Source: Steroidobacteraceae bacterium
GTDB lineage: Bacteria; Pseudomonadota; Gammaproteobacteria; Steroidobacterales; Steroidobacteraceae
Length of the DNA: 64,000 nucleotides
Direction of reading: 5' to 3'
NCBI GenBank assembly: GCA_025458905.1
Contig: JALORN010000013.1
Coordinates: 62,001-126,000, forward strand
Below are positions 4,902 to 56,073 of the stretch, piece by piece. The notes beneath the pieces are model-generated. The model ran no database searches. It was not told the origin of the DNA and saw only the letters and a list, made by a program, of their open reading frames with translations. Every line of letters begins with the position of its first letter. The stretch's first letter is position 1. The translations under genes and the position numbers were made by a program.

Positions 4902-6212
4902 ATGATCCGGAAGAAGACCTCGGCAGCGATGCTGCTCTGCCTGCTGTCCACTGCGATCGCCATGTCCCACGAACGCAGGGCCGCCGTCGAGGGCCGCGCG
5001 ACGGCGACCCCCGCCGGATGGTGGAAGGGGAACACGCACACCCATACCTGGTGGAGCGACGGCGACAGTCCGCCGGAGTCGGTCGCGGCCTGGTATCGCG
5101 ACCGCGGCTACCACTTCCTGGTGCTCAGCGACCACAACCGGATGCAGGAGGGGCAGCTCTGGTATGCCGTCGACGACGCCGCGAAGCGCCAGGCGCTGGA
5201 GCTCTACCGGAGGCAGTTCGGACCGGACTGGGTCGAGGTCCGCGAGCGCGATGGCGTCACGGAAGTGAAGCTCAAGTCGCTCGACGAGTTCCGCACCCTG
5301 TTCGAGGAGAAGGACCGGTTCATCTTCATCCGCGGCATGGAGATCACGGACCGGCAGGAACAGCACCCGGTGCACCTGAACGGGGTCAACCTCGAGCGAT
5401 CCCTGGTCCCGCAGCGCGGCGCGACGGTGGCCGAGGTGCTGCAGAGGAACATCGAGGCGGTGGCCGAGCAGGGACGGCGCACCGGGCGGCCAATGTTCTC
5501 GCACGTCAACCACCCGAACTTCTTCTACGCCATCACGGCGGAGGACCTCGTCGCCCTCGATCACGAGGCCGGCGACGGATTCTTCGAGGTCTACAACGGC
5601 CACTCCGGCGTCCGCAACCACGGCGACGCGCAGCACCCTGGCACCGAGCGGCTCTGGGACATCGTACTCGCGCAGCGTCTCGCCGGGCGCGGCACCACGG
5701 TGCTCTATGGCGTGGCCACCGACGATGCCCACCAGTACACCCAGTGGGGCCTGCAGAAGGTGAATCCGGGGCGCGGCTGGGTGATGGTGCGCGCGCCGCG
5801 GCTGACGCCCGACACGATCACGGCGGCCATGAAGCGCGGTGACTTCTACAACAGCACCGGCGTCGTCCTGCGGCAGCTCTCGATCCGCGAGCGCACCCTC
5901 GAGCTCGAAGTGCAGCCCGAGAAGGGCGTGACCTACAGCATCGAGTTCGTCGGCACGCGCCGCGGCGTCGATCTCGCCGGCGCCACCGTGACCGCGCCGC
6001 CTGCCGATGCACCGGGCCGCCTGTCGCAGCGCTACGACGAGCGCATCGGGGAGACGTTCGAGCGCGTCGCGGGAACGCGGGCGCGCTACGTCGCACGGGG
6101 TGACGAGATCTACGTGCGCGCGCGCGTCGTCTCCTCGCGCCTGCATCCCAACCCGTTCGCGGAGGGCGACCGCGAGATGGCCTGGACCCAGCCGCTGGTC
6201 ATCGCACCGTAA
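4902..6212 (+). CDS. Exported PHP-domain metal-dependent phosphoesterase
   Basis: A 436-residue protein with an N-terminal signal peptide (basic MIRKK, hydrophobic core to about residue 21). A PHP fold follows: the first metal motif is HTHTWWSDGD at residues 46-55, then VLSDHN, then FSHVNHPNF and finally VATDDAH. These are the spaced His/Asp clusters expected for a trinuclear metal site. The start at 4902 has GGAGG six bases upstream, so the long N-terminal extension open in this frame is rejected. The family hydrolyses phosphoesters; here it would act outside the cytoplasm. It stops 16 bases before the Pho-box-like array of the following operon, so a role in phosphate salvage is possible but inferred. 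Confidence 0.78.
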   Translation: MIRKKTSAAMLLCLLSTAIAMSHERRAAVEGRATATPAGWWKGNTHTHTWWSDGDSPPESVAAWYRDRGYHFLVLSDHNRMQEGQLWYAVDDAAKRQALELYRRQFGPDWVEVRERDGVTEVKLKSLDEFRTLFEEKDRFIFIRGMEITDRQEQHPVHLNGVNLERSLVPQRGATVAEVLQRNIEAVAEQGRRTGRPMFSHVNHPNFFYAITAEDLVALDHEAGDGFFEVYNGHSGVRNHGDAQHPGTERLWDIVLAQRLAGRGTTVLYGVATDDAHQYTQWGLQKVNPGRGWVMVRAPRLTPDTITAAMKRGDFYNSTGVVLRQLSIRERTLELEVQPEKGVTYSIEFVGTRRGVDLAGATVTAPPADAPGRLSQRYDERIGETFERVAGTRARYVARGDEIYVRARVVSSRLHPNPFAEGDREMAWTQPLVIAP

Positions 6213-6228: not shown

Positions 6229-6273
6229 AGTTCATCGCTCGTTCATCGGTCGTTTACCGGAGCCGTGTGGAAT
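6229..6273 (+). promoter_or_regulatory. Pho-box-like triple direct repeat with a -10 element
   Basis: Three seven-base units, AGTTCAT (6229), CGTTCAT (6240) and CGTTTAC (6251), are each separated by four bases, giving the exact 11-base period of PhoB sites. The middle unit matches the enteric CTGTCAT unit at five of seven bases; the flanking units match less well. Ten bases after the last repeat is TGGAAT (6268-6273), a plausible -10, which is the usual spacing at Pho promoters. The transcript would lead 65 bases later into the TonB receptor and PhoD. The four-base spacers are GC-rich rather than AT-rich, so this rests on spacing and context. Confidence 0.6.
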
Positions 6274-6337
6274 CACGCCCGAGCCCGCGCCCCCGGCGCG
6301 GCGACTCGACAACCAGAACATCAGGCGGGAAACACAG

Positions 6338-10505: not shown

Positions 10506-11957
10506 ATGGGCGAAGCGAACGCGTGCGGCGCGGCACCCTGGCATGAGCGCGAGTGGGACCTGGTCATCATGGGCGCGGGCACGACCGGCCTCTCGGCGGC
10601 GATCTTCGCCGGCGCGCGGGGCGGTCGCGTGCTGCTGGTCGACGCGTCTCCCGAGCTCGGCGGCTCGCTGCTGGTCGCGCACGGCCAGATCAGCGCGGCA
10701 GGCACGAAGCTGCAGAAGCAGAAGGGCATCCACGACACGCCGGAGATGCACTACGAGGAGGCCCTGCGGATCAGCAAGGGCACGATCGACAAGGACCTCG
10801 CGCGGCTCGCGATCTTCAACGCCGCCGAGACCTTCGACTGGCTGTGCGACAACGGCTACGACCTGGTGCCGGACGTGCCCTCGCTGTCGAACGCGCACGA
10901 GCCTTATTCGGTCGCGCGCTATTACTGGGGCAAGGACTGGGGCCGCTCGATCGCGAAGGTGCTGATCGCCAAGGTCGAGGAACAGGTGGCGCGCGGCACC
11001 GTGACCCAGCAGCTCTCGACGCGCATCGTCGGCCTCGTGCAGGACGTCGACGGCGCGGTCACCGGCGTCGTCACCGAGGAGGGCGACGGCAGGCGCCGGC
11101 GCGTGCGGGCGCGCAACGTGCTGCTGGCCGCCGGCGGCTATGCCGCGAATCCGGAGATGTTCGAGCGCATGGTCGGCGTGCCGCTCTTTGCGCGCGCCGC
11201 CTACCCGTACAACAAGGGGCTGGGGATCGAGCTCGGCGTCGAGGCCGGCGGCTTCTTGCGCGGACGCGACAGATACCTCAGCAACTTCGGCTGGCTGCTG
11301 CGGGACGACGATTTCCCGAGCCCGATCATCGGCCGCGTCAACACCTATCCCAACGAGCGGCCGCCGTGGGAGATCTACGTCAACATGAATGCGCGGCGCT
11401 TCATCCGCGAGGACGAGCCGAGCGTCGACCAGCGCGAGCACACGCTGCTGCGCCAGCCGAACCTGCGCTACTGGGTGGTGTTCGACGACGCGATCTTCCA
11501 GCAGGCGCCGCCGATGGTGTACGGCTGGACGCGCGAGCAGATGGCCGAGGCGTTCAACAGGCAGTTCCCGTTCACCCGGGCGGAGACGCTCGATCAGCTG
11601 GCGCGCGCGATCGGCATCGACCCGGCGGGGCTCGTGGCGACGGTGAAGGCCTACAACACGGGCCGTGCCGCCGGCCGCGACTACTTCGGCCGCCTGCACA
11701 TGCCTGCGGCGATCGAGAAGGGCCCGTTCTACGCGATCCGCCAGCAGGGCGCCTCGGTCACCTCCACCGCCGGCCTCGCGGTCGACGGCGAACTGCGGGT
11801 GATCCGGCCGGATCGCAGCCCGGTGAAGGGGCTCTACGCGGCGGGCGAGATCCTAGGCTCCGGCCAGTTGCAGGGGGACGCGTTCGTCGGCGGGATGATG
11901 GCGATGCCCTGCCTGGTGTTCGGGCGGCTGCTCGGCGAGAAGATGATCCGGTTCTGA
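10506..11957 (+). CDS. FAD-binding oxidoreductase, fumarate reductase/3-ketosteroid dehydrogenase-like
   Basis: A 483-residue flavoprotein of the FAD_binding_2 family. The FAD motif GAGTTG is at residues 23-28, and the C-terminal FAD segment reads VKGLYAAGEILGSGQLQG. GGAGG five bases before the ATG fixes the start. No signal peptide, so cytoplasmic, unlike its paralogue at 15645-17168, which has a Tat signal. The two share long blocks, such as the SAAGT/DTP stretch near residue 75 and NAAETFDWL versus NAADTFDWL. Relatives reduce or desaturate C-C bonds next to carbonyls (fumarate, 3-ketosteroids). The gene follows phoD on the same strand by 53 bases but probably has its own promoter. Confidence 0.78.
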   Translation: MGEANACGAAPWHEREWDLVIMGAGTTGLSAAIFAGARGGRVLLVDASPELGGSLLVAHGQISAAGTKLQKQKGIHDTPEMHYEEALRISKGTIDKDLARLAIFNAAETFDWLCDNGYDLVPDVPSLSNAHEPYSVARYYWGKDWGRSIAKVLIAKVEEQVARGTVTQQLSTRIVGLVQDVDGAVTGVVTEEGDGRRRRVRARNVLLAAGGYAANPEMFERMVGVPLFARAAYPYNKGLGIELGVEAGGFLRGRDRYLSNFGWLLRDDDFPSPIIGRVNTYPNERPPWEIYVNMNARRFIREDEPSVDQREHTLLRQPNLRYWVVFDDAIFQQAPPMVYGWTREQMAEAFNRQFPFTRAETLDQLARAIGIDPAGLVATVKAYNTGRAAGRDYFGRLHMPAAIEKGPFYAIRQQGASVTSTAGLAVDGELRVIRPDRSPVKGLYAAGEILGSGQLQGDAFVGGMMAMPCLVFGRLLGEKMIRF

Positions 11958-41794: not shown

Positions 41795-43129
41795 TCAGCG
41801 CGGGCTGGCGGCGGCCTGCGCCGCGAGTGGCGCCCCCGCCTCCCAGCGCATCGAGCGGACCTCGGTGCCCTGCTGCCAGGCGATCTGCACGCTGCCGTTG
41901 GCGCGTGCCGCCACCGCGGGCAGCTGGGTCGCGCCCGGCGGCGCGGGCAGCTCGACCACCGGCCCGAAGCTCGCGCCACCGTCGGTCGAGGCGCGTGTGT
42001 AGATGCGGCGCGCGCCGCTGCCGACCTTGGCGTGCCAGAAGAGATGCAGCGCCGCGCCGGCATGCGCGATCACCGGCGCGTCGGAGGTGGTCGCGCCCGG
42101 GTGCACGAGCATCGGTGCACCCCAGGTCTTGCCGGCATCCTTCGACTGCGCGAGGTAGACGCCGGCCGGATCCTCGCCGCCGGTGAAGTAGGTGGCCCAG
42201 ACGTTGCTGCCGGCGGCGGCGATGCTGGTCGGCTTCAGCGGGCAGCCCTCGATCTCCCAGCGCTTGCCGACCACGCGCTGGCGCGGCGAGAAGCTGCGGC
42301 CGCCGTCGGTCGAGACGGCGACGGTGCTGTCGCGGAACTTGCCCTCGACCTGGCGCGAGCCCACCCACAGGCGCTGCTCGTCGTCGACGTGCGCGGTCAG
42401 CTGGCAGCAGGGGCAGACGTCGGCCGGGAACAGTTCCGTGTCCTTGCCGAAGCTCTTGCCGTCGTTGCGCGAGACGGCCATGAACACCTTGCCCGCATCG
42501 CCTTCCTTCGCCATGTCGCGGGTGTCGATCCACATCGCGTAGACCGAGCCCTTGGCGTCGACCGCCATGGTGCCGAACACGTGCGCATGCGAGAGGCCGC
42601 CGTGTACGAGGTGGCTGGCATCGGTGGTCGCGTACGAGTTCAGGCGCTGCGGCTTCTCGAAGCTGCGGCCGCCGTCGGTGGAGCGCGTGTAGAGCGCGAC
42701 CGCGACCGGCTTGCCGGTGGCCGGGCTGACGTCGTTCGCCGGATAGAAGACGTGGATCGTGCCGTTGCGGCCCACGGCGATCCGCGGCTTGCTGACGGAA
42801 AAGCCCCAGACCTCGCCCGGCTTGCCGTTGACCGCGACCGGCCTGGAGAAGGTGCGGCCGCCGTCGGTGGAGCGTGCGAAGAACAGGTTGGTCGAGGCCA
42901 TGTGGGAGTGGCCGTGCGAGGGGTCGTGCTGCTGCGGCGCGGTGTCCTCGTCGATCCAGATCATGTTGACCGAGTCGTCGGGACCGATGGCGATCTCCGG
43001 GCTCTGCGCCTTGTGGTCCGCTGTGGAGACGAGCGCGGCCGGCGCTGCGGAGGTCGGCGCCTCGGCCGCGAGCGCGGGCAGGGCAGCGGCGAGCGTGGCG
43101 AGCGCGAGGTGACGGAACGTGGCAACCAT
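41795..43129 (-). CDS. Exported BNR/Asp-box (sialidase-fold) protein
   Basis: A 444-residue protein with a signal peptide ending ALPALAA. Six Asp-box hairpins are spaced along it (STDGGRTF, STDGGRSF, SRNDGKSF, STDGGRSF, SKDAGKTW, STDGGASF), indicating a six-bladed beta-propeller. The arginine triad and Tyr/Glu of true sialidases cannot be placed with confidence. A cysteine cluster, ADVCPCCQLTA, in mid-propeller is unusual and could bind a metal. A His-rich loop (HDPSHGHSH) near residue 70 adds to this. Probably a periplasmic binding or enzyme-accessory protein rather than a glycosidase. Divergent from the SDR gene. Confidence 0.75.
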   Translation of the reverse strand: MVATFRHLALATLAAALPALAAEAPTSAAPAALVSTADHKAQSPEIAIGPDDSVNMIWIDEDTAPQQHDPSHGHSHMASTNLFFARSTDGGRTFSRPVAVNGKPGEVWGFSVSKPRIAVGRNGTIHVFYPANDVSPATGKPVAVALYTRSTDGGRSFEKPQRLNSYATTDASHLVHGGLSHAHVFGTMAVDAKGSVYAMWIDTRDMAKEGDAGKVFMAVSRNDGKSFGKDTELFPADVCPCCQLTAHVDDEQRLWVGSRQVEGKFRDSTVAVSTDGGRSFSPRQRVVGKRWEIEGCPLKPTSIAAAGSNVWATYFTGGEDPAGVYLAQSKDAGKTWGAPMLVHPGATTSDAPVIAHAGAALHLFWHAKVGSGARRIYTRASTDGGASFGPVVELPAPPGATQLPAVAARANGSVQIAWQQGTEVRSMRWEAGAPLAAQAAASPR

Positions 43130-43382
43130 AGGTGACCCCTCTTGCGGTGCGTTACGTTGCGGCGCCGTGCGATGCGGCAGGACGGCGCAAGGTTACCTCC
43201 GGCCGGTGCTGCACCACCATCCTGCGGCGCACCTGTGCCGCAGGTCCACGTGTCGGACACCGCTGCCCGCGCCGGGCACGCGCTCCGCCCCGGCGGCGAT
43301 GCCTGCGCCTACAGACCGCCACCTGCGTGGTCCGCGACCCTCTCCGGTCCCCCTTTCCTCCGGATTCGTCAGGAGCGCCACC

Positions 43383-44441
43383 ATGGCCGAGCAGGCATCC
43401 CCCACCCCCACCCCGACCCCGCGCCGCCCGGGCAGCAACGGGCACTCGGCAGGCAGCGAGCGGCACGCCGGGGCCGCCGAGCGCACCGCCGACGAACAGC
43501 GACGGATCCAGCGGCGCATCGACGACGCCGAGGACCACGACGACGGCAGCAGCGCCGGGAACGACGGCCCGATGCAGGCCGGCGCGCGCCCGTACCCCGC
43601 GCCGCCGTTCCCGAAGCAGCACCAGGCCAAGCCCGGCTTCGAGACCGCGCTCGACCCACCGCCGATGTACGACGCGCCGTACTACAAGGGTTCGGACAAG
43701 CTGCTCGGCAAGGTCGCGATGATCACCGGCGCCGACTCGGGCATCGGGCGGGCGATCGCCGTGCTCTATGCGCGCGAGGGTGCCGACGTGGCGCTGCTCT
43801 ACCTCAACGAGCACGACGACGCGCGCACCACCCAGGAGGCGGTCGAGCGCGAGGGCCGCCGCGCGATCACGATCTCGGGCGACGTGCGCGACCGTGAGTT
43901 CTGCCTCGACGCGGTCGAGCGGGTGGTGCAGGCCTTCGGCCGGCTCGACATCCTGGTCAACAACGCGGCCTTCCAGGTGCACAGCAGCCGCCTCGAGGAG
44001 CTGACGGTCGAGCACTTCGACCAGACGGTCAAGACCAACCTCTACGGCTACTTCTTCATGGCCCAGGCGGCCGTGCCGCGGCTGCCGCACGGCGGGGCGA
44101 TCGTCAACTGCGGCTCGGTGACCGCCTTCCAGGGCAGCGAGCAACTGCTCGACTACTCGATGACCAAGGGCGGCATCCACGCGTTCACGAAGTCGCTCGC
44201 CGCGCACCTCGTGCCGCGCGGCATCCGCGTCAACGCGGTGGCGCCCGGGCCGGTGTGGACGCCGCTGAACCCCTCCGACAAGGAAGCGGACGACGTGACC
44301 CATTTCGGCGGCAGCGTGCCGATGAAGCGGCCCGCGCAGCCGGAGGAGATCGCGCCGGCGTTCGTGTTCCTCGCTTCCGCGCACTGCTCGAGCTACATCA
44401 CCGGCGAGATCCTGCCGGTAGTGGGGGGCTACGGAGGCTAG
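43383..44441 (+). CDS. SDR family oxidoreductase, YghA/glucose-dehydrogenase-like
   Basis: A 352-residue short-chain dehydrogenase. A polar N-terminal extension (about 95 residues, ending at PPPMYDAPYYKGSDKL) precedes the Rossmann motif ITGADSGIGRAIA; then LVNNAAFQ, catalytic Ser in NCGSV, and Tyr/Lys in DYSMTKGG. The MYDAP...YKGSDKL extension is typical of the stress-related YghA/YhdF branch, which reduces aldehydes with NAD(P)H. AGGAG before the ATG at 43383 fixes the start. Convergent with the PPOX-type gene. The 253-base divergent gap to the BNR gene holds no other element I can support. Confidence 0.87.
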   Translation: MAEQASPTPTPTPRRPGSNGHSAGSERHAGAAERTADEQRRIQRRIDDAEDHDDGSSAGNDGPMQAGARPYPAPPFPKQHQAKPGFETALDPPPMYDAPYYKGSDKLLGKVAMITGADSGIGRAIAVLYAREGADVALLYLNEHDDARTTQEAVEREGRRAITISGDVRDREFCLDAVERVVQAFGRLDILVNNAAFQVHSSRLEELTVEHFDQTVKTNLYGYFFMAQAAVPRLPHGGAIVNCGSVTAFQGSEQLLDYSMTKGGIHAFTKSLAAHLVPRGIRVNAVAPGPVWTPLNPSDKEADDVTHFGGSVPMKRPAQPEEIAPAFVFLASAHCSSYITGEILPVVGGYGG

Positions 44442-44462: not shown

Positions 44463-44879
44463 TCAGGGCTTGGGCTCGAGCCCGTAGATGCGGTGGCGCG
44501 ACGGGGTCAGCAGCCCGAGCATGGTGCCCTCGCGCGACAGCGCGCGACTGCGCTGGCCGAGGCCGTCCGGGCCGAACGCGCGCTCGATCATGGCCTCCCA
44601 GAGGTGCTGGGCCGCGGCGTCGACCCGGATCTCGATGGTGCCCCAGACGATCACGTGGGCCATGGTCACCGGCCTCGAGATCGCGACGCAGGCGCGCGGG
44701 TCGCGCTCGAGGTTGCGGACCTTCTGCTTGCCGGTGAGGCTGAACAGCAGGTGGGTGTCGGTCAGGCCCATCATCATCGGCGTCACGTGGGGCCCGCCGT
44801 CGCGGCCGATGGTCGAGAGGTGCACCCAGGCGGCCGGGTCGTGGAGGGCGGTGATCGCCGCGTGCAGCTTCGGGTCCAT
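44463..44879 (-). CDS. Pyridoxamine 5'-phosphate oxidase-like (PPOX class) flavin/F420 protein
   Basis: A 138-residue split-barrel protein. It shows AAWVHLSTIGRDGGPHVTPM, LLFSLTGKQKVRNLERDP and VAISRPV, the FMN/F420-type cofactor strands of the PPOX superfamily. It is the last gene on the minus strand after the polyketide operon, 62 bases after the ketosynthase stop, so it may be co-transcribed and supply a redox step. Members range from FMN reductases to haem binders; the activity is not fixed by sequence. Confidence 0.75.
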   Translation of the reverse strand: MDPKLHAAITALHDPAAWVHLSTIGRDGGPHVTPMMMGLTDTHLLFSLTGKQKVRNLERDPRACVAISRPVTMAHVIVWGTIEIRVDAAAQHLWEAMIERAFGPDGLGQRSRALSREGTMLGLLTPSRHRIYGLEPKP

Positions 44880-44941: not shown

Positions 44942-46231
44942 CTAGCACCGCGTCGCGGTACCGCGGCGCGCGACCAGCACGGCATTGGTGCCGCCGAAGG
45001 CGAACGAGCTGGACATCGCGGCGCGCAGGCCGAGCCCGCGCCGGGCACCGTCGCTGACGTAGTCGAGGTCGCAATCGGGGTCGGGCAGGTCGAGGTGCAT
45101 CGTCGGCGGCACCGTGTCGTGGCGCAGGGCGAGCACCGTCAGCAGGAACTCGAGCGCGCCGGCCGCGCCGAGCAGGTGGCCGTGCACGGCCTTGGTGGAG
45201 CTGACCGGCAGCGCCGGCGCACGCGCACCGAACACCGCCTTCAGCGCCGCGGTCTCGACCGCGTCGTTCTGCGTGGTGCCGGTGCCGTGCGCGTTGACGT
45301 AGTCGATCGCGGAGCCGTCCAGCGCGGCGTCGGCGAGCGCGGCGCGCATCGCGGCCGCCTGGCCCTCGACGCTGGGGCGCGCGATGTGGAGGCGGTCGGT
45401 CGCGAGGCCATAGCCGGCCAGTTCGGCGTGCCAGGTCGCGCCGCGCGCGCGGGCATGGGCGAAGGACTCGAGGATCACGCAGGCGGCGCCTTCGCCGAGC
45501 ACCAGGCCGCTGCGCGAGCGCGAGAACGGTCGGCAGGACCTCGACGGGTCGTCCGCGTCGGCGACGGCGACGGTCTTCAGCGCCTCCCAGGCGCGCAGCA
45601 CGCCGAGGGTCAACGGGGCCTCGGTGCCCCCGGCGATCGCCAGGTCCGCCTCGCCGTGGCGGATGCGGCGCGCGGCCTCGCCGATCGCGACCGCGGACGA
45701 CGAACAGGCGGTCGAGAACGTGAGGTTCGGGCCGTCGATGCCGTGCTCGATGCCGATCCAGGCGGCCGCCGCGTTGTTCATCGCGGCCAGCACGCTGTAG
45801 GGCGCGACGCGGGCGGACGGCCGGGCATAGAGGGTCTCGTAGCCGTCGTCGGTCGTGGCGGCACCGCCCATGCCCGTGCCGAGGAACACTCCGCAGCGGT
45901 TGGGGTCCTCGCGGCCGAAGTCGACGGCCGCATCCTGCACGGCCGCCGCGGCGGCCGCGAGCGCGAGCTGCGTGACGCGGTCGAGCATGCGCAGTCGCGC
46001 CGGCGGATGGCGTGCGGCACCGTCGAAACCCGCCACGGCACCGACCGGCGAGGCGAGCCGGGCGGCCCACGGGGCCTCGAGTCGCCGCACGGCCGACCGC
46101 CCGGCCACGACGCCCGCGAAGGCCTCCTCGGGCGTGGCGCCGGGGGGCGCGATCACCCCGAGCCCGGTGACGGCGACGCGGTGCCGACCGCGGCCGTCAC
46201 GGTCCGGGTGCCGCGTGGGGCGTGCGGTCAC
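44942..46231 (-). CDS. Beta-ketoacyl-ACP synthase (KAS II-like) of the type III PKS operon
   Basis: A 429-residue elongating ketosynthase. Catalytic residues are complete: Cys176 in STACSSSA, His315 in VNAHGTGT, and Lys347/His352 in STKAVHGHLLGAAG; the C-terminal SSFAFGGTNAVL is typical. The GTG at 46231 overlaps the ACP stop (GTGA), which fixes the start despite longer open sequence upstream. It decarboxylatively condenses malonyl-ACP with acyl-ACP. Set apart from fab genes and beside a private ACP, it probably builds or primes the acyl chain handed to the type III synthase. Confidence 0.87.
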   Translation of the reverse strand: MTARPTRHPDRDGRGRHRVAVTGLGVIAPPGATPEEAFAGVVAGRSAVRRLEAPWAARLASPVGAVAGFDGAARHPPARLRMLDRVTQLALAAAAAAVQDAAVDFGREDPNRCGVFLGTGMGGAATTDDGYETLYARPSARVAPYSVLAAMNNAAAAWIGIEHGIDGPNLTFSTACSSSAVAIGEAARRIRHGEADLAIAGGTEAPLTLGVLRAWEALKTVAVADADDPSRSCRPFSRSRSGLVLGEGAACVILESFAHARARGATWHAELAGYGLATDRLHIARPSVEGQAAAMRAALADAALDGSAIDYVNAHGTGTTQNDAVETAALKAVFGARAPALPVSSTKAVHGHLLGAAGALEFLLTVLALRHDTVPPTMHLDLPDPDCDLDYVSDGARRGLGLRAAMSSSFAFGGTNAVLVARRGTATRC

Positions 46232-46560
46232 GGCCCGGCGGGCGAGGCCGGGGGTGCCTGCTCGCGGACCGGGCCGGCACCTGCACGGGCGCCTGCGCCC
46301 GCGCATCGTGCCGCCCCGCCGGCGGCCCCGGGCGACGCCAGTCGATCGACGAATCGCGCCACGTCGCCGAGCGTCTGCAGGTCTTCGGGGTTGCCGAGCG
46401 GGACCTCGATGCCGAAGCGGTCCTCGCACTGGAACATCAGCTCCACCAGGGCGAGCGAGTCGATGCCGAGGTCGGCGAGCCGGGCGTCCGGCGTGACCTG
46501 GTCGGGGCGCAGGTGATGGTCGCGGACCAGCATCTCCTGCAGCGTGTCGAGCGTGTTCAT
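46228..46560 (-). CDS. Acyl carrier protein of the type III PKS operon
   Basis: A 110-residue protein. The first 75 residues are a standard ACP with the phosphopantetheine serine at Ser35 in LGIDSLALVEL and the helix III acidic face (EDRFGIEV). The last 30 residues are an Ala/Gly/Pro-rich tail not usual for ACPs. GGAGGA precedes the ATG. It overlaps the ketosynthase gene by four bases (GTGA) and follows the FAD enzyme by 50 bases. It carries acyl intermediates for the ketosynthase and perhaps delivers the starter to the type III synthase. Confidence 0.85.
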   Translation of the reverse strand: MNTLDTLQEMLVRDHHLRPDQVTPDARLADLGIDSLALVELMFQCEDRFGIEVPLGNPEDLQTLGDVARFVDRLASPGAAGGAARCAGAGARAGAGPVREQAPPASPAGP

Positions 46561-46610
46561 CGTGTCTTCCTCCGTGGCGTGACGGGGTGCCGTGGCGTGA
46601 CGGTGGAGCC

Positions 46611-47822
46611 TCACGCCAGGCCGCGCGCGGCGCCCGCCGCGGCGCGCGGCGCGAGCGCCGGGCGTGCCTTGCCGGCGAGGCGGGCGGCGACGGCGAGCAG
46701 CGCGGGCCAGGCCTGCAGCAGCGCGCCGGCGGGACGCGCGAGGGGCGGGTGCATCGCGGTGCGGCCGCAGGCGGCTGCCGCGAGCAGGCGGGCGCGGAAG
46801 GTCGCGCGCCACGCGCGTGCGTAGTCGAGGCGCAGCGCCTCCGCGGCGCGTCCGGCATGGGCGCGCGGGCCGTGGCGCACCAGGCGGGACGCGAGCAGGG
46901 CCGCGGACTGGATCGCCATCGCGATGCCTTCGCCGACCAGGGGGTGACACTCACCGACGGCGTTGCCGACGCGCAGCGGCCCGCCCGGTGCGGCGGCGCG
47001 GATGCCGGGCCGGACCGGACCCCAGGCCAGCCAGGGCGTGGCACGCGTCGCGCCGCCGAGCATCGCCTCGAGCGCCGGGCAGTGGCTGCGCAACTCGGCC
47101 TCGAGCGCGGCTCCCGCGGCGAGTCCGGGCCGACGCGCGCGGCATTCGCGCAGGCGCGCGCGCCCGATGCACAGCGCGAACGTCGTCCAGCCCCGCTCCG
47201 CGACCACGAGGCCGCCATAGCCGCCGGGGAACGACAGCAGCGGCAGGTGACCCGCCGTCGGCCCGGCATCGCGCCAGCGGGACTTGAAGGCCAGCAGGTC
47301 GTCGTCGCGCTGCGGTCCCTCGCCGCCGGGCCGCGAGCCGCGCGCGTCGACGACCACCCGAATGCGCAGCGCGGTGGCGCGCCCGGCCTCGCGCAATTCG
47401 CACCGGTGGTCGCCCGGCACGCCGTCGACGCGGAGCACGCGCGCCGGCTGGCGCACCTCGACCCCGAGTGCGCGGGCCTCCCCGAGCAGCAGTTCGTCGA
47501 GGCGGACGCGGCCGAGCGCGCGCCCGTGCCGGTGACGGCCGCCCTGGCCGTCCGGCAAGGCGGCGCGCAATTCGCGCCGGGAATCGAGCCAGCCTACGCT
47601 GGCCAGCGCGGGCCCCGCCTCCTGCACGACCCGCTCGCCCAGCCCGAGCGCGTCGAGCCAGTCGAGCGCGCCCGGGGAGAGGCATTCGCCGCAGACCTTG
47701 TCGCGCGGGAAGCGCGCGGCCTCGGCCAGCACCACGTGCCAGCCGGCGCGCGCCAGCAGGGCGGCGGTGACCGAGCCGGCGGGCCCACCGCCGACCACCA
47801 GCGCGTCCGCGTCAGGGGACAC
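46611..47822 (-). CDS. FAD-dependent oxidoreductase, geranylgeranyl reductase/hydroxylase-like
   Basis: A 403-residue flavoprotein. The GTG start at 47822 overlaps the methyltransferase end by 11 bases and places VVGGGPAGSVTAALLARAG at the N-terminus. The motif FPRDKVCGECLSPGAL and the FAD-phosphate motif VGNAVGECHPLVGEGIAMA are the geranylgeranyl-reductase/FixC/halogenase-type marks. In Streptomyces srs clusters a flavoprotein hydroxylates the alkylresorcinol ring; this protein could do that or reduce double bonds in the chain. No tryptophan-halogenase WxWxIP motif is seen. Confidence 0.83.
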   Translation of the reverse strand: MSPDADALVVGGGPAGSVTAALLARAGWHVVLAEAARFPRDKVCGECLSPGALDWLDALGLGERVVQEAGPALASVGWLDSRRELRAALPDGQGGRHRHGRALGRVRLDELLLGEARALGVEVRQPARVLRVDGVPGDHRCELREAGRATALRIRVVVDARGSRPGGEGPQRDDDLLAFKSRWRDAGPTAGHLPLLSFPGGYGGLVVAERGWTTFALCIGRARLRECRARRPGLAAGAALEAELRSHCPALEAMLGGATRATPWLAWGPVRPGIRAAAPGGPLRVGNAVGECHPLVGEGIAMAIQSAALLASRLVRHGPRAHAGRAAEALRLDYARAWRATFRARLLAAAACGRTAMHPPLARPAGALLQAWPALLAVAARLAGKARPALAPRAAAGAARGLA

Positions 47823-48549
47823 GGTGTGGCTCCGTGCGTCGCGCCGCGACGCGCACCGCGGCGAAGCAGTGCATGAAGAGCCCCGCCGGGTACTCTTCCA
47901 GCGCCCAGGCACCGGGGGCCGGCGGCCAGGCGGAGGAGAGCTCGCGGCCGGTGAAGCCTGCGTCGACGCTCGACACCGCGTCCTCGCGCGTCACCGGGCC
48001 GGATCCGAGCAGGGCGACCAGCCGGCTGCCGAGCCGCGCCAGCGCGCCGCGGCGCGGCTCGCAGGCGACGAACGCCATGGTGCGCCGTGCCAGCGCCGGC
48101 AGCAGTCGGGTGAGCGCGGCGTTGTCGAGGTGGTGCAGGAACAGCGTCGCGAGGCAGAGGTCGTAGCCGCCGGGGTGTGGCCCCTGGGCCCAGTCGAGCA
48201 CGTCGCCGCGCTCGACCCGCAGCTGCCAGCCGAGGCTCGCGAAGCCCTTGCGCGTCGCGTCGGCGACCACGTCGACCCGGTCGAGCATCGTCACCTCGAT
48301 GCCGCGCCAGCTGGGCGGCATGGTGCGCGCGACGCGCAGCAGCAGCGTGCCGTCGCCTGCGCCGAGCTCGAGCAGGCGTCGCGGCGGATGCGCCAGCCCG
48401 GTGCGGGCGATCGCGCGCCGCAGCAGCGTCGCCGAGCCCATCGCGCGGTGCACGCGCTGCAGGTCGAGCCGTGCGCGCCGGGCGCGCGGGTCGTCGGGCG
48501 ACAGCGCGTCGAGCTGCTCCGGGACGATGGTCCTGGCCGGGCCCGTCAT
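47812..48549 (-). CDS. SAM-dependent methyltransferase of the type III PKS operon
   Basis: A 245-residue class I methyltransferase. SAM motif I is LLELGAGDGTLLLRVA (residues 59-74), followed by VTMLDRVDVV, GDVLDWAQ and LATLFLHHLD. It starts six bases after the type III PKS stop and overlaps the flavoprotein start by 11 bases. In alkylresorcinol and alkylpyrone clusters the neighbouring methyltransferase makes a phenol methyl ether; this is the likely role here. It resembles UbiE/small-molecule O-methyltransferases more than protein methyltransferases. Confidence 0.82.
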   Translation of the reverse strand: MTGPARTIVPEQLDALSPDDPRARRARLDLQRVHRAMGSATLLRRAIARTGLAHPPRRLLELGAGDGTLLLRVARTMPPSWRGIEVTMLDRVDVVADATRKGFASLGWQLRVERGDVLDWAQGPHPGGYDLCLATLFLHHLDNAALTRLLPALARRTMAFVACEPRRGALARLGSRLVALLGSGPVTREDAVSSVDAGFTGRELSSAWPPAPGAWALEEYPAGLFMHCFAAVRVAARRTEPHRVP

Positions 48550-48555
48550 CCGCCC

Positions 48556-49614
48556 TCACTCCACCTGCAGCAGCGCGCCATGGCAGGTGAAGCCCGCGCC
48601 GAAGCTGCTCATCCACCACCAGCCACCGGGGGCACCCTCGGCGAGCGCGGCATCGAGCACGAACAGCACGAAGGCGCTGCTGAGGTTGCCGTACTCGCGC
48701 AGCGCCTCGCGGCTGTAGCGCAGCTCGTCGCCGTCGAATCCGAGCCGGCTCGCGACCGCGGCGAGCACGTCACGGCCCCCGGCGTGCAGGATCCACGCGG
48801 CGACGTCGCCGCGCGCGAGGCCTGCACGGCCGAGCGCCGTCTCGAGCACCGACTCGACGCGCGCGGCGGCGAGCGCCGGGACCGCGCGCGTCAGCACGTT
48901 GCGCAGCAGGCCGCCGCGCTGCTCGAAGCGCAGCGCGCCGCGCGCCGCGGGGTCGATCGTGGTCAGGCTGTCGCGCCAGGCGACGCGCCGCCGGTCACGG
49001 GGCGGTCGACGCGAGAGCACCGCGGCGCCGGCGCCGTCGCCGAACAGGCAGGCGCTGACCAGCACGCCCGGGTCGTCGTCGAGGTACATCGCCGCGCTGC
49101 AGACCTCGACGCAGACCGAGAGCACGTGCTCGCACTGGCCGGAAGCGAGCAGGGCGCTGGCGAGCTGCAGGTTCGGCAGCGCACCGGCGCAGCCCTGGCC
49201 GACGAGGTCGAAGCCGCGCAGGTCGTGGGCGAGGCCCAGGCGCTCGACTACGTAGCCGCTGAGGCCCGGGCAGAGGTAGCCGGTGCAGGTGGTGACGACG
49301 ACCGCGCCGACCTGGGAGGGCTCCAGGCCGGACCGCTGCAGCGCCGCGGCGCCGGCCTGGGCCGCGAGTCGCGGGGCGTGCAGTGCGAAGCGGCTCGCCA
49401 GCGTGTCCGGGTCGATCTCGAACGCCTCGTCCAGCGAGTCGAGCGCGAGCCGCCGCGCCTCGATGCCGTTGTCCCGCGCCAGCACCGCGCGCGTGATCGC
49501 GTGCGAGCGGGGAGCGAGGCGGGCGAACCAGCGGGAGCCCACGAAGGCGGTCCAGCAGTCCTCCTTGGTGTAGCGACGCTCGGGGACGGCGGTGCCTGTC
49601 GCGGTGACGTACAT
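48556..49614 (-). CDS. Type III polyketide synthase (chalcone/stilbene synthase family)
   Basis: A 352-residue homodimeric condensing enzyme, first gene of the operon. The catalytic triad is complete: Cys142 in LVGQGCAGALPN, His277 in AWILHAGG, and Asn310 in EYGNLSSAF. The gatekeeping region GDGAGAAVLS is standard. It extends an acyl starter with malonyl-CoA and cyclises it to a resorcinol or pyrone. Bacterial relatives use long-chain acyl starters, which fits the adjacent ACP and ketosynthase. No specific product can be read from sequence. Confidence 0.9.
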   Translation of the reverse strand: MYVTATGTAVPERRYTKEDCWTAFVGSRWFARLAPRSHAITRAVLARDNGIEARRLALDSLDEAFEIDPDTLASRFALHAPRLAAQAGAAALQRSGLEPSQVGAVVVTTCTGYLCPGLSGYVVERLGLAHDLRGFDLVGQGCAGALPNLQLASALLASGQCEHVLSVCVEVCSAAMYLDDDPGVLVSACLFGDGAGAAVLSRRPPRDRRRVAWRDSLTTIDPAARGALRFEQRGGLLRNVLTRAVPALAAARVESVLETALGRAGLARGDVAAWILHAGGRDVLAAVASRLGFDGDELRYSREALREYGNLSSAFVLFVLDAALAEGAPGGWWWMSSFGAGFTCHGALLQVE

Positions 49615-49743: not shown

Positions 49744-50850
49744 ATGTCCCGCCCCACGCTCGCCGCCGCGCTCGGTGTCGCGGCACTGTCCCTCGGCGCG
49801 CTCGCCGCTGCCGCCAACCCGCCGCAGCTGGTCCGCCCGGACGGCAGCTACCCGACCGTGCCGCTCGAGAAGGACGTCGTGGTGATCAAGGTGGTGCAGC
49901 ACGCGCCGCTCACCCTGCAGAAGGCCCCCTCGATCCGCGAGGGCCTCGCGACCAACGTCGAGCGCATGGCGTCGTGGATCCAGAAGGCCTGCAGCAGCGG
50001 CAAGAAGCCCGACTTCATCCTGTTCAACGAGTTCCCGCTGACCGGCTACTCCTCCGGCACCCGCGAGGAGAAGCTCAAGTTCACGATCCAGGTGCCCGGC
50101 CCCGAGACGGCGCGCATCGGCGAGCTCGCCAAGGCCTGCGACACCTACGTGATCTTCGGCAGCTACGCGACCGACCCGGAGTGGCCGGGGCACATCCTCA
50201 GCCTGAACCCGGTGATCGGCCGCGACGGCAAGGTGAAGCACGTCTACTGGAAGTCGCGGAACGTGATCCGGCTGAACGACGACGAGATCCCCACCACGAC
50301 GGTCGAGAACGTGCGCGACCGCTTCCGCAGTAAGTACGGCATCGAGGAGGAGTTCCCGGTGCTGATGACCGAGTACGGCAACATCGCCGTCAGCACCGTG
50401 CAGCTCGACCCGTTCGTGTTCGCCGCCTACGCGATGCGCGGGGTCGAGATCATGCTGCGCACCGCGACGCTGTTCTCCAAGACCGACGTGCAGGCGATCG
50501 CGCTCTACAACAACGTCTATTCGGCGATGTCGAACATCACCTTCCCGGCGGACTCGGGCGTGCCGGGGAGCTTCGGCGGCGGCTCGCTGGTGGTCGACCC
50601 GCGCGGCAAGGTGCTCGCCGAGGACCCGAGCAACGACGAGGGCATCGTCGAGGCCGAGGTGCCGATCGCCGCGTTCCGCAAGGGCCGCACGATCCCGCGC
50701 TACCCGCTCGAGGTGGTGAAGCCGGTGTTCGACCAGTACGTGCAGGAGGTGCCGCTGAACCACCTCGACCTGCCACCGGCGAAGCTGCCGCAGACGACCA
50801 AGGACATGAAGGACCTGCTCGACCGCAACAGCCGCTGGAAGAAGCGCTGA
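49744..50850 (+). CDS. Exported nitrilase-fold (carbon-nitrogen hydrolase) protein lacking the catalytic Cys
   Basis: A 368-residue protein with a signal peptide (to about AAAANPP) and a nitrilase-superfamily domain. The family Glu is Glu96 in FILFNEFPLTGY and the Lys is Lys170 in HVYWKSRNV, but the strand that normally carries Cys as ICxD reads STVQLDPF, with Gln220 at that place. The rest of the fold (MRGVEIMLRTAT, GGSLVVDPRGKVLAED) is intact. Nitrilases and amidases attack C-N bonds with this Cys, so this one is either inactive, a binder, or uses another nucleophile. GGAGGT before the ATG is ideal. Divergent from the PKS operon. Confidence 0.8.
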   Translation: MSRPTLAAALGVAALSLGALAAAANPPQLVRPDGSYPTVPLEKDVVVIKVVQHAPLTLQKAPSIREGLATNVERMASWIQKACSSGKKPDFILFNEFPLTGYSSGTREEKLKFTIQVPGPETARIGELAKACDTYVIFGSYATDPEWPGHILSLNPVIGRDGKVKHVYWKSRNVIRLNDDEIPTTTVENVRDRFRSKYGIEEEFPVLMTEYGNIAVSTVQLDPFVFAAYAMRGVEIMLRTATLFSKTDVQAIALYNNVYSAMSNITFPADSGVPGSFGGGSLVVDPRGKVLAEDPSNDEGIVEAEVPIAAFRKGRTIPRYPLEVVKPVFDQYVQEVPLNHLDLPPAKLPQTTKDMKDLLDRNSRWKKR

Positions 50851-51003: not shown

Positions 51004-51612
51004 ATGGCCCGCAAGTCGAAGGGCGCGCCCGACGCCATCCAGCTGCTGAAGAAGGACCACGCCGAGGTCACCGCGCTGTTCACGCGCTACGAGGACGCCG
51101 GCGACCGCGACGAGAAGGCCGAGATCGCGAGCGAGATCTGCCGCAAGCTCACGATCCACGCGCTGTGCGAGGAGGAGCTGCTGTACCCGGCGGCCCACGA
51201 GTCGATCGACGACGACCTGGTCTACCAGGCCGAGGTCGAGCACCAGGGCGCCAAGGACCTGATCGCGCGGATCGAGGACGCCGACCCGGAGGCGGAGAAC
51301 TTCGACGCGATGGTGCGCGTTCTCGGCGAGTACGTACGGCACCACGTCAAGGAAGAAGAGAGCGAGATGTTCCCGCAGCTCAAGCGCAGCGACCTCGACC
51401 TCGAGGCGCTCGGCCTCGAGCTCGCGGAGCGCCGCAGCGAGCTCGAGACGGCGCTCGGCAGCGCCGCGGACGAGGACGACGAAGCCGAGGACGACGAGGA
51501 CCTCGACGACGACTACGACGATGACGATGACGATGACGACGAGGATTTCGACGACGACGTGGACGTCGAGATCGACGACGACGCGGAGGGCGACCGGGAC
51601 CGCGCGGCCTGA
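51004..51612 (+). CDS. Hemerythrin HHE-domain protein with poly-acidic tail
   Basis: A 202-residue protein. The four-helix hemerythrin part (residues 10-145) supplies the diiron ligands: His19 (KKDHAEV), His52 and a Glu in IHALCEEE, His80 (VEHQGAKD), His113 or His114 and Glu118 (RHHVKEEESEMFP). From about residue 155 to the end the protein is almost entirely Asp/Glu, including eight Asp in a row. HHE proteins sense or bind O2, NO or iron; the tail could bind divalent cations or basic partners. GGAGGA precedes the ATG. Monocistronic, convergent with the DUF2306 gene. Confidence 0.85.
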   Translation: MARKSKGAPDAIQLLKKDHAEVTALFTRYEDAGDRDEKAEIASEICRKLTIHALCEEELLYPAAHESIDDDLVYQAEVEHQGAKDLIARIEDADPEAENFDAMVRVLGEYVRHHVKEEESEMFPQLKRSDLDLEALGLELAERRSELETALGSAADEDDEAEDDEDLDDDYDDDDDDDDEDFDDDVDVEIDDDAEGDRDRAA

Positions 51613-53003: not shown

Positions 53004-55109
53004 TCACATTTCGGTGGATCTGCGGGAAATACCTAGCGTGAACCGCACGCCCCCCGGCGGGCTCGGCAGGTCTTCGGCACGTGCGCTGCCGGCGTGGAAC
53101 TCGGCGATCAGCCTGACGATGTAGAGGCCGAGGCCGAAATGCGGGCGCTCGTCCTCGCCCCGGCGGTACTGCCAGAGCGACTCGAACAGGCGCGGGCCGG
53201 CTGCGGTCGGCAGCGGCGGGCCGTCGTTCTCGACCTCGATGGCCACGGCGTCGCCGGCCGCGTCGCGCAGCCGCAGCCGGATGGTCGAGCCCGGCGGGCT
53301 GAAGTCGACGGCGTTGTCGACCAGCTTGTCGACGGCCTGCAGCACGAGGTCCGGGGCGCCGTGCAGTTCGCACGGATGCCCGGCGCCCTCGAGGCGGAAC
53401 TCGCGCTGCGGGAAGGCGTCGCGATAGGCCTGGGTCGCCGTCTCCAGCAGGTCCGCGAGGTCGAAGCGCGTGCGCTCGGCGGAGCGGATCGCCTCCTCGA
53501 CGCGGGTCGCCGCGCCCATCGCCTGCACGATCGCGGCGAGGCGCTCGCTGCCCTCGCGCGCGCGCGCCACATAGGTGCGTGCGCCGTCGCCGAGCGGCTC
53601 GGCCTCGAGGTTCTCGAGCGAGGACCGGACGATCGTCAGCGGGGTGCGGATCTCGTGCGAGAGCTTGCCGGCGAGCGTGCGCAGGTAGTCGGTGTAGTCG
53701 GCCAGCCGCCCGAGCAGCGCGGCGAAGGCGCGCGCGACGTCACCGAGCTCGTCGCGGCCGTCGGTGCCGGGGAAGCGGGTCCGTATCCGGCCGTCGCGGC
53801 TCAGGGCCGCGTCGCTGGCGCGCCGCACGCGCTCGAGCCGCAGCGCCAGGTGGGCGCCGAACAGCAGGGCCGCGCCGACCACGATCGCGACCGCGAGCAG
53901 CGTCAGGTTCAGCAGCCGGGTCAGCGCGCGGTCGCGCAGCAGCAGCCAGCGGTCGGCGGTCTGCGCGACCTGCAGCACCGCGATCACGCGGTCCGAGCCG
54001 GCCTCGCGCACCGGCGCGGCCGCGGAGATCACCAGGCGGCGGCCGCCGGGGGCCGCCAGCAACGCGGTGCTGCCGCGGCCTGCGGCGACCTCCCGCGCCT
54101 GCGCGGCGTCGAGCAGGCCACGATCGGCGGGTGCGGCGCGCTCGGCCAGCGTCGTCCCGGGCAGGAATCGCCGATAGAGCAGCGACAGCAGCGCCTGCGA
54201 GCCGCCAGCCTCGGTGCCGACCGCCGGCAGCGCGTTCGCCTCGGCGAGCACGTGGCCCTGCGGCGTGGCCGCGGCGATGCGCACGCCGGGCTGGCCGAAC
54301 TGTGCGAGCCAGCCGCCGAGCTCGGGCGCCGCGGCGACCAGACGGCCGCGCGGCACGAGTTCGCGCGGGCTCGCCGAGCCATAGCTCGACGGCGTCGCGC
54401 CGCGGGCGTCGCGGTCGTCGAGCAGCACGCCGAACTCGCCGCCGAGCATCGACAGCGGCAGCCGCAGCTCCATCGCCCAGCCAGCGTCGCCGTCGAGGCG
54501 GCGCAGGGCGCCCTGGACGCGCGGCTCCTCGACGAACTCCGGTCGCCCGAGCTCGCGCGTGGCGACGCGCCGGCCGCGCACCGTGCCGCTGCTCCAGCCG
54601 GAGACGAACAGCTGCTGGCGGGCACCCTCCGGCGTGGCGTATGCGATCCACAGCCGGTCGCCGCTGGCGCCGGGATCGAGCGCCGCGTCGTCGCTCGCGT
54701 CCAGCACCAGGCGGTCGCCCGGCGCGCGGACCAGCAGGTAGAGGTAGCGTTCGTGGCTGCCCGCCCGCAACTCGAGAGCCTCGCCGTCGCGCCGCCCGCG
54801 GATGCGACGCCAGGACGCCGCCGCCGGCCAGTCGTCGCCGCGGCCATCGAGCTGCGGAGGGGCTGCGAGCGGCACGGGCACGAGATCGTAGGGCCCCGCG
54901 GGAAGGGCGGGCGCCGGTTCCGCGAGGCCCCGGTACAGCAGGTCCTGGCGACCGCGCAGCGAGGTCGCGATGGTCTGGGCGACCGCGAGCAGCGACTGTC
55001 CCTCGGCGACGCGCAACGAGCCCTCGACCTCGCGCACGTACTGGCAGCCTGCCCAGGGCAGCGCCAGGGTCGCGAGCCCGAGCAGCAACAGCTTGGTCCG
55101 GATCAGCAC
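53004..55109 (-). CDS. pdsS: Sensor histidine kinase, PdsS-like (dedicated sortase system type)
   Basis: A 701-residue membrane kinase. After an N-terminal helix (about 5-20) comes a large periplasmic sensor whose first half (about 75-230) is CBM9-like (PQLDGRGDDWPAA, then WAMELRLPLSMLGG). A second helix (about 398-420), a linker with HAMP character, and the kinase core follow: phosphoacceptor His485 in GKLSHEIRTPL, N box DKLVDNAVDFSPPG and G box HFGLGLYIV. The length, CBM9-like sensor and neighbouring regulator match the proteobacterial dedicated-sortase system kinase. No sortase or target protein gene is in the window, so its present signal and output are uncertain. Confidence 0.8.
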   Translation of the reverse strand: MLIRTKLLLLGLATLALPWAGCQYVREVEGSLRVAEGQSLLAVAQTIATSLRGRQDLLYRGLAEPAPALPAGPYDLVPVPLAAPPQLDGRGDDWPAAASWRRIRGRRDGEALELRAGSHERYLYLLVRAPGDRLVLDASDDAALDPGASGDRLWIAYATPEGARQQLFVSGWSSGTVRGRRVATRELGRPEFVEEPRVQGALRRLDGDAGWAMELRLPLSMLGGEFGVLLDDRDARGATPSSYGSASPRELVPRGRLVAAAPELGGWLAQFGQPGVRIAAATPQGHVLAEANALPAVGTEAGGSQALLSLLYRRFLPGTTLAERAAPADRGLLDAAQAREVAAGRGSTALLAAPGGRRLVISAAAPVREAGSDRVIAVLQVAQTADRWLLLRDRALTRLLNLTLLAVAIVVGAALLFGAHLALRLERVRRASDAALSRDGRIRTRFPGTDGRDELGDVARAFAALLGRLADYTDYLRTLAGKLSHEIRTPLTIVRSSLENLEAEPLGDGARTYVARAREGSERLAAIVQAMGAATRVEEAIRSAERTRFDLADLLETATQAYRDAFPQREFRLEGAGHPCELHGAPDLVLQAVDKLVDNAVDFSPPGSTIRLRLRDAAGDAVAIEVENDGPPLPTAAGPRLFESLWQYRRGEDERPHFGLGLYIVRLIAEFHAGSARAEDLPSPPGGVRFTLGISRRSTEM

Positions 55110-55148
55110 GGCGGCGGGCGGCGGGCGGCGAGTGGCGTCGTGGTGCGC

Positions 55149-55847
55149 TCAGCCGGCCGGATCGACCCAGCGGTAGCCCATTCCGTAGACCGTCTGGACC
55201 GCGTCGAACGCCGGGTCGACCGACTGGAACTTGCGCCGGATGCGCTTCACGTGCGAGGTGATGGTGTTGTCGTCGAGCACGACGTTGGCCGCATCCATCA
55301 GCTGCTGGCGGTTGCGGACGTGCCCCGGGTGACGGGCGATCGCGTGCACGATCCAGAACTCCGTCAGCGACAGCAGCACCGGCTGGCCGTTCCACAGCAC
55401 CTGCAGGCGCTCGCCGTCGAGCGTCAGGGCGCCGCGGTGCACGACCTGCTGGCCGTCGGCCGGGCGCGTCAGCGCGTCGACGCGGCGGAACAAGGCGTTC
55501 ACCCGCGCGAGCAGGTGCGCGAGGCTCAGGTCCTTGGTGAGGAAATCGTCCGCGCCGAGGCGCAGACCGGACACCGCGTCGAGCTCGGAGTCGCGCGCCG
55601 TCAGGAAGATGATCGGCAGCCCGGCGCTGCGCGCTCGCAGCTCGCGGCAGAGCTCGTAGCCGCCCTCCGGCTCGTCGCCGAGCGAGATGTCGATCACCAC
55701 GAGGTCGGGCAGCCGCGCGGCGAAGGCCTGCAGCGCCAGCCGGCGGCTCGCGTAGGTGCGCACCGAGTAGCCCTCGCGCGCGAACGCCGCGGCGTAGTTG
55801 TCGCGGATCGCAGGCTCGTCCTCGACGATGGCGATGGTCCTCTTCAT
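55149..55847 (-). CDS. pdsR: OmpR-type response regulator, PdsR-like
   Basis: A 232-residue regulator starting MKRTIAIVEDEPAIRDNYA. The receiver has acidic Asp10/Glu11, phospho-acceptor Asp53 (LVVIDISLGDE), Thr in IIFLTARDS and Lys in DDFLTKDLSL. The C-terminal winged helix contains LTEFWIVHAIARHPGHV and TITSHVKRIRRKFQ, and ends in TVYGMGYRW. These stretches agree with the regulator of the proteobacterial dedicated sortase system. It begins the operon; the kinase follows after 39 bases. Longer in-frame sequence upstream lacks protein character. Confidence 0.85.
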   Translation of the reverse strand: MKRTIAIVEDEPAIRDNYAAAFAREGYSVRTYASRRLALQAFAARLPDLVVIDISLGDEPEGGYELCRELRARSAGLPIIFLTARDSELDAVSGLRLGADDFLTKDLSLAHLLARVNALFRRVDALTRPADGQQVVHRGALTLDGERLQVLWNGQPVLLSLTEFWIVHAIARHPGHVRNRQQLMDAANVVLDDNTITSHVKRIRRKFQSVDPAFDAVQTVYGMGYRWVDPAG

Positions 55848-55980
55848 GGGGCGGCAGTGTATCGCCCGGCCCGGCGGCGCGGCAGGCAGCCCTCGGTGCT
55901 GCCACGATTGATCATTTTCCTTCCCCGTCGCGCCACTCTCCTGCCGGCACCGCGCCGCGCGGCGGTGCGGGAATGGCGTC

Positions 55981-56073
55981 ATGAAGACGCTGGATGCATG
56001 GACCGGATGGGCCGCCGTGGCGACGCTGGCGGTGGCATGGTGCCTCGAGTCGAGCTGGCTCGCCGGCGGCTGA
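55981..56073 (+). CDS. Possible 30-residue membrane peptide
   Basis: A 31-codon ORF in the 241-base gap between the response regulator and the GGDEF-EAL gene, on the opposite strand to both. It reads as a short amphipathic start (MKTLDAWTGW), an Ala/Val-rich hydrophobic core and a polar end. CGGGA about nine bases upstream is only a weak ribosome site. It may be a small membrane protein or chance. The remaining gap (55848-55980) holds nothing else I can support beyond space for the regulator's promoter. Confidence 0.3.
   Translation: MKTLDAWTGWAAVATLAVAWCLESSWLAGG

Follow-up and report, generated by a model that had tools for sequence, protein, structure and literature searches.

In a 64,000-nucleotide stretch of contig JALORN010000013.1 from a Steroidobacteraceae bacterium (hereafter the window), five genes on the minus strand, running from position 49614 down to 44942, form an operon in which a type III polyketide synthase (PKS), a methyltransferase (MT) and a flavin adenine dinucleotide (FAD)-dependent oxidoreductase are followed by an acyl carrier protein (ACP) and a FabF-type beta-ketoacyl-ACP synthase (KAS). 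The same arrangement, PKS-MT-FAD-ACP-KAS, recurs in many beta- and gammaproteobacteria, and the operon has a wide but patchy distribution and is rare. It is a real and conserved variant of the phenolic-lipid operons that was not found described in the open literature searched, among the matches listed and with most subscription journals outside that literature. We suggest that the five genes probably encode a pathway to a methylated and oxidised alkylresorcinol or quinone with a private supply of acyl-ACP; the class of product and the hand-off of the acyl chain are what we infer here from gene content and known relatives. The operon comprises the following genes:

48556-49614, minus strand: type III PKS, 352 amino acids (Chal_sti_synt_C, 69 bits)
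47812-48549, minus strand: S-adenosylmethionine-dependent MT, 245 amino acids (Methyltransf_25, 31 bits)
46611-47822, minus strand: FAD-dependent oxidoreductase, probably a ring hydroxylase, 403 amino acids (FAD_binding_3, 50 bits)
46228-46560, minus strand: dedicated ACP, 110 amino acids (PP-binding, 47 bits)
44942-46231, minus strand: dedicated KAS II (FabF-type) ketosynthase, 429 amino acids (NF005589, 404.4 bits)

A preliminary description of this DNA had noted five tightly packed minus-strand genes, and the coordinates and domain searches agree with its labels. PKS and MT are separated by 6 nt, MT and FAD overlap by 11 nt, FAD and ACP lie 50 nt apart, and ACP and KAS overlap by 4 nt. The source genome is fragmented (4.28 Mb in 109 contigs) and 86% complete.

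The order of the genes is conserved among related loci. One scan of a species-level genome collection gave 178 pattern matches, 125 of which encode a relative of the PKS, and the best 80 of these 125, with a PKS 58-72% identical to that of the window, were kept. By their record titles these loci are mostly from Pseudomonadota, together with one Verrucomicrobia and one Nitrospirae metagenome bin. Because they are the closest relatives, the fractions given here hold for this PKS clade only; locus L004 was omitted from the gene-order counts, being on the same contig as L050. All five genes are complete and in order in 56 of the 80 loci, the PKS is accompanied by ACP and KAS in 58, and the MT adjoins the PKS in 77. 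In ten of the 80 loci, the sequence beyond the PKS is shorter than 4.3 kb; among the other 70, which we refer to as loci with room, 56 carry all five genes in order. With starts chosen automatically, the median spacings along the operon are 10, -1, 3 and -4 nt, the last being that of ACP and KAS over 58 loci. The complete set is found in the annotated plasmid pSBC2-3 of Caballeronia sp. SBC2 and also in Massilia psychrophila (L062), Azohydromonas lata (L105), Paralcaligenes ureilyticus (L053) and Caballeronia sordidicola (L046). A chance arrangement or frame artefact is ruled out by the 56 loci with the same order. Moreover, the pairwise distances of the five proteins correlate at 0.72 to 0.86 over 57 rows (PKS-KAS, 0.82; PKS-ACP, 0.72), as expected of a unit that is inherited together, with shared species history contributing as well.

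The two halves of the operon are separable. PKS-MT-FAD exists without the ACP-KAS pair, and PKS-ACP-KAS exists with no MT or FAD between in three loci, i.e. L035:8001-10633, L033:1485-4134 and L129:3705-6408 (genome G087). Among the best 80 of the 125, the PKSs of L035 and L033 are the closest to that of the window (72% and 70% identity), while the PKS of L129 is 58% identical; L035 has room and L033 is one of the ten short loci. In L098, a short KAS-like match follows FAD (11196-11300; 51% identity over ~35 residues, E 3e-4), possibly the remnant of a lost KAS.

Co-occurrence of PKS and KAS was also found in a sample drawn independently of the operon. This sample comprises 369 genomes taken evenly from the class; a PKS was scored at E 1e-40 or better and an operon-type KAS at E 1e-120 or better, the latter limit having been chosen after the other FabF of the source genome was seen at 5e-100. 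The PKS was present in six genomes, the KAS in five and both in four. If the source genome is excluded, the 368 genomes contain the PKS in five, the KAS in four and both in three, which gives a one-sided Fisher p = 5e-6 with related genomes treated as independent. Together with the 58 of 80 loci and the kept spacing, this supports the association of the ACP/KAS pair with the PKS that had been claimed earlier. In this sample, all five genes stand in order in G150. In G087, PKS-ACP-KAS is preceded by no more than a weak FAD-like match (25%). G192 carries PKS-MT-FAD, as does G304, in which FAD is cut by the contig end. Of the 59 genomes related to that of the window, G028 alone has a match above 71 bits (66% identity), and a phylum sample of 398 genomes gave no match to the PKS profile at E 1e-60 beyond the source genome itself.

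The PKS has the catalytic triad Cys142-His277-Asn310, reported as complete in the preliminary description and invariant in all 81 rows of the alignment (80 loci and the window). Its AlphaFold model (predicted local distance difference test score, pLDDT, 90.8) has its highest TM-score, 0.92, to PKS11 of Mycobacterium tuberculosis (among the 50 listed PDB chains; rank 3 by E-value). Triad and chalcone synthase (CHS) fold identify the protein as a type III PKS, and a dihydroxyphenylacetyl-CoA synthase (DpgA) is rejected by a score of 157.8 bits against the cut-off of 425 of NF042429. Phe230, conserved as Phe in 80 of the 81 rows, aligns with residue 256 of CHS (Gly256), also in the G256F mutant, and the PKS profile scores this mutant at 136 bits and the wild type at 131 bits. 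In Azotobacter vinelandii, the site of ArsB Trp281 and ArsC Gly284 sets resorcinol versus pyrone formation, with an aromatic wall favouring the resorcinol (PMC6274091; this and the other papers cited are drawn on in part), and residue 230 of MMAR_2474 is the Trp equivalent to ArsB Trp281 (PMC5916927). By way of MMAR_2474, Phe230 would be the ArsB Trp281 site, and an aromatic residue at this presumed wall leads us to predict, with moderate confidence, a resorcinol as the product. Trp274, which is invariant and lies three residues ahead of the catalytic His, was rejected as the equivalent of ArsB Trp281 because plant synthases share it in the alignments. For the actinobacterial and Psychrobacter type III PKSs, the printed alignments are to other chains such as PKS18 and not to ArsB, ArsC or PKS11.

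The flavoprotein matches the NCBIfam models for QhpG and for geranylgeranyl reductase, both below their cut-offs. The nearest solved folds of its model (pLDDT 86.9) are flavin halogenases, including ChlB4 and PltA, and FasV, with hydroxylases further down. Flavin-dependent halogenases typically contain a W-x-W-x-I motif. Despite the nearest folds, a halogenase role was rejected, as the motif is found in none of the 73 members of the flavoprotein family; hydroxylation is thus the likelier role, and the protein is probably a ring hydroxylase. Two plasmids carry distantly similar MT and FAD proteins. A three-gene PKS-MT-FAD set without ACP and KAS is present on plasmid pDEIPR01 of Deinococcus proteolyticus (L155:5992-8961), near genes annotated as HpaH hydratase and HpcH/HpaI aldolase, and on a plasmid of Psychrobacter urativorans (L152:2989-5812) a type III PKS faces an oppositely oriented FAD-MT pair, the ends of the PKS and FAD genes overlapping by 4 nt.

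Both members of the ACP-KAS pair have their functional residues and are distinct from the other copies in the genome. The ACP has Asp34-Ser35-Leu36, and Asp-Ser-Leu is kept in 62 of 62 ACPs; the Ala/Gly-rich tail described earlier is real, and in the family alignment the tail is variable, with ACP lengths of 79-131 amino acids. The KAS has Cys176-His315-Lys347-His350, a tetrad kept in 59 of 59 KASs. It exceeds the cut-off of NF005589 (beta-ketoacyl-ACP synthase II; 387 bits) and falls under that of the fabF equivalog TIGR03150 (411.8 versus 493.75 bits); its active-site residues and KAS II family score identify it as FabF (KAS II). On contig 107 of the same genome, an ACP (6003-6206) is followed by a FabF (6269-7546), which we take to be the usual acpP-fabF neighbourhood. 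The operon ACP is 31% identical to this ACP and the operon KAS 43% identical to this FabF, the only other FabF-like match in the genome. In nine further genomes, the best second KAS matches are at 37-43% identity or below and none fall in the 44-50% range; thus, operon KASs and other FabFs are well apart. In a phylogenetic tree, a branch with 100% support sets the ten other FabFs, presumably the housekeeping enzymes, apart and excludes the operon KAS from their clade. On the other side are the operon KASs and the KAS of G387, which is placed next to one operon KAS and close to the FabFs. At 19 alignment columns, the 59 operon KASs differ from the ten FabFs with hardly an exception. The operon pair looks like a diverged copy of an acpP-fabF cassette.

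The preliminary description had compared the locus with the srs logic, and the likeness stands: as in operons of the srs and pkq type, PKS, methyltransferase and flavin oxidoreductase are adjacent in one operon. To our knowledge, and as that description had stated, srs is without an ACP/KAS pair. Operons with a PKS, a methyltransferase and an oxidoreductase lead in mycobacteria and Streptomyces to alkylresorcinols and from these to alkylquinones; in srs of Streptomyces griseus, pkqA-C of Mycobacterium smegmatis and Streptomyces sp. MNU77, the type III PKS is followed by a methyltransferase and an oxidoreductase or hydroxylase, as here (PMC9927152). The srs and pkq operons have three genes, while there are five here, and the term “acyl carrier” was not found in PMC9927152. 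Such operons also lead to hierridin. The cyanobacterial hidABC genes and a planctomycete operon, likened here by description, share the three functions and have alkylresorcinol-derived products, while their usual order is MT-oxidoreductase-PKS, unlike PKS-MT-FAD here (PMC10896814); “ketoacyl” and “FabF” were not found in that paper. The cyanobacterial HidC is proposed to start from acyl-ACP, a further likeness (PMC8086630). For starters held on a carrier, there are three comparisons. In the ars operon of A. vinelandii, the alkylresorcinol and alkylpyrone synthases are fed by an ACP-held fatty acid, ArsB and ArsC receiving the starter from ArsA (PMC6274091), whereas the window operon has a free-standing ACP and one FabF-type KAS. 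Gcs (germicidin synthase)/SCO7671 is likewise an acyl-ACP-capable type III PKS, able to use hexanoyl-ACP, but makes pyrones, and the part of PMC6274091 drawn on mentions no dedicated carrier encoded with the PKS. Finally, in the cylindrocyclophane pathway, the free-standing ACP CylB starts the chain that reaches the resorcinol-forming type III PKS CylI, but, unlike in the window operon, two type I PKSs stand between them (PMC8086630).

We suggest the following model. The PKS would extend a fatty starter with malonyl-CoA and close the chain to an alkylresorcinol, the flavoprotein would hydroxylate the ring and the MT would methylate it, giving a methoxyphenol or an alkylquinone of the srs, polyketide-quinone or hierridin kind. 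The ACP and the FabF-type KAS would prepare the starter on the dedicated ACP, with housekeeping fatty acid synthesis doing the rest, and the starter would be passed to the PKS as acyl-ACP or beta-ketoacyl-ACP. Acyl-ACP supply would most simply be the role of an extra ACP-FabF cassette, and ArsB/ArsC, Gcs/SCO7671 and, as proposed, HidC are precedents among type III PKSs. Open reading frames of at least 80 amino acids in the 81 loci were clustered in a search for a sixth gene; besides other-frame overlaps of the five genes, no family occurs in more than 11 loci and the positions are scattered. In particular, no ketoreductase, dehydratase or enoyl reductase is conserved near the operon in these loci. 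The clustering is a blunt test: with the E-value limit used, not even the ACP emerged as a family. A small gene that evolves fast could therefore escape it, while a reductase of the usual size should not. As no reductive enzyme is conserved nearby, the chain would either be finished by housekeeping fatty acid synthesis or reach the PKS directly, as beta-ketoacyl-ACP.

The direct transfer is a special form of this model, in which the KAS would perform the first condensation and the PKS would add two malonyl units instead of three. The neighbourhood without reductases and the catalytic residues kept in every KAS are consistent with it, and Gcs, which accepts acetoacetyl-CoA as well as acyl-CoA starters, offers a parallel (PMC6274091), but the beta-keto group could first be processed by housekeeping reductases and only then transferred, and we consider this form a tentative possibility. 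Somewhat more doubtful is the prospect of a split polyketide synthase in which a type II ketosynthase would carry out the first condensation on its private ACP and a type III PKS would complete and cyclise the chain; the product may be a lipid quinone that has gone unrecognised in beta- and gammaproteobacteria. We consider it unlikely that the pair is a spare fatty-acid cassette travelling with the operon while the PKS takes ordinary acyl-CoA. Such a passenger would fit the loci that lack KAS, the pair found in G387 without an operon-type PKS, and the planctomycete PKSs, whose alkylresorcinol production in Corynebacterium glutamicum is attributed to acyl-CoA starters, with no such pair mentioned in the part of the source drawn on (PMC10896814). 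However, order and overlap are kept in 56 loci, the operon KAS is distinct from other FabFs in the tree, PKS-ACP-KAS is retained where MT and FAD are missing, and PKS and KAS co-occur in the independent class sample. It is very improbable that the ACP holds the polyketide product while MT and flavoprotein modify it. Halogenases of the ChlB4/PltA type, among the nearest folds of the flavoprotein, act on carrier-bound substrates, but 11 of the 70 loci with room have the PKS with neither ACP nor KAS, 10 of these with both MT and FAD detected, PKS-ACP-KAS exists without MT and FAD, and the KAS would be left without a role.

Several observations weigh against a private acyl-ACP supply for a resorcinol or quinone pathway, among them the loci without the pair and the neighbourhood without reductases. 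The preliminary description had named as refuting evidence a pair not conserved with the PKS; for the clade this is refuted by the complete loci, and it is true in single lineages, with KAS absent from 13 of the 70 loci with room, two of which (L039 and L088) keep the ACP. The PKS tree implies at least 10 changes in whether KAS is present, 6 of them forced by well-supported branches. In G232, a contig end truncates the PKS, and the ACP-KAS pair lies on another contig; G387 has the pair with no PKS of the operon type; and the co-occurrence test, as stated, counts related genomes as independent. HidC is proposed to use a C14 acyl-ACP starter with no dedicated pair, so that a private pair is not necessary for the use of acyl-ACP (PMC8086630). 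As for the product, site 230 is Phe where ArsB has Trp, in an alignment without the ArsB, ArsC or SrsA sequence, and MT and FAD are 19-32% identical (local alignments) to those of two other type III PKS loci.

The usual description of type III PKSs has them draw on acyl-CoA (PMC6274091). A conserved operon equipped with a carrier and a ketosynthase of its own would illustrate how fatty acid synthesis can be committed to a phenolic lipid in a bacterium. Should the product be a quinone, it might act as an additional electron carrier of lipid nature, like that reported for the mycobacterial polyketide quinones (PMC9927152), and if the KAS performs the first condensation, two different condensing systems would share one short pathway.

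The genes next to the operon are judged to lie outside it:

44463-44879, minus strand: PPOX-type (TIGR03618-like) protein by domain searches, adjoining KAS after a 62-nt gap
43113-44441: short-chain dehydrogenase/reductase (SDR)
49744-50850, plus strand: nitrilase-like gene, divergent and upstream

The protein following the operon is of PPOX type, as had been described, but membership in the operon is not borne out, as tblastn (E 1e-3) found no relative in the 81 PKS loci. By tblastn, the nitrilase-like gene was rejected as a part of the operon with relatives in 0 of 81 loci, and the SDR with relatives in 3 of 81 (27-32% identity), one of which, L004, repeats L050. A PPOX-like protein, labelled by eye and unmatched by that of the window, lies downstream of PKS-MT and a FAD-like frame in L109 (8292-8798). 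In G387, a genome given as 98% complete, the ACP-KAS pair (L126:6896-8382; contig G387:C174) is of the operon type, its KAS being 51-54% identical; it adjoins a gene labelled by eye as aminotransferase-like and may have a role in a different pathway. Further upstream of the operon, the window contains a hemerythrin-domain gene (51004-51612) and a histidine kinase with a response regulator (53004-55982).

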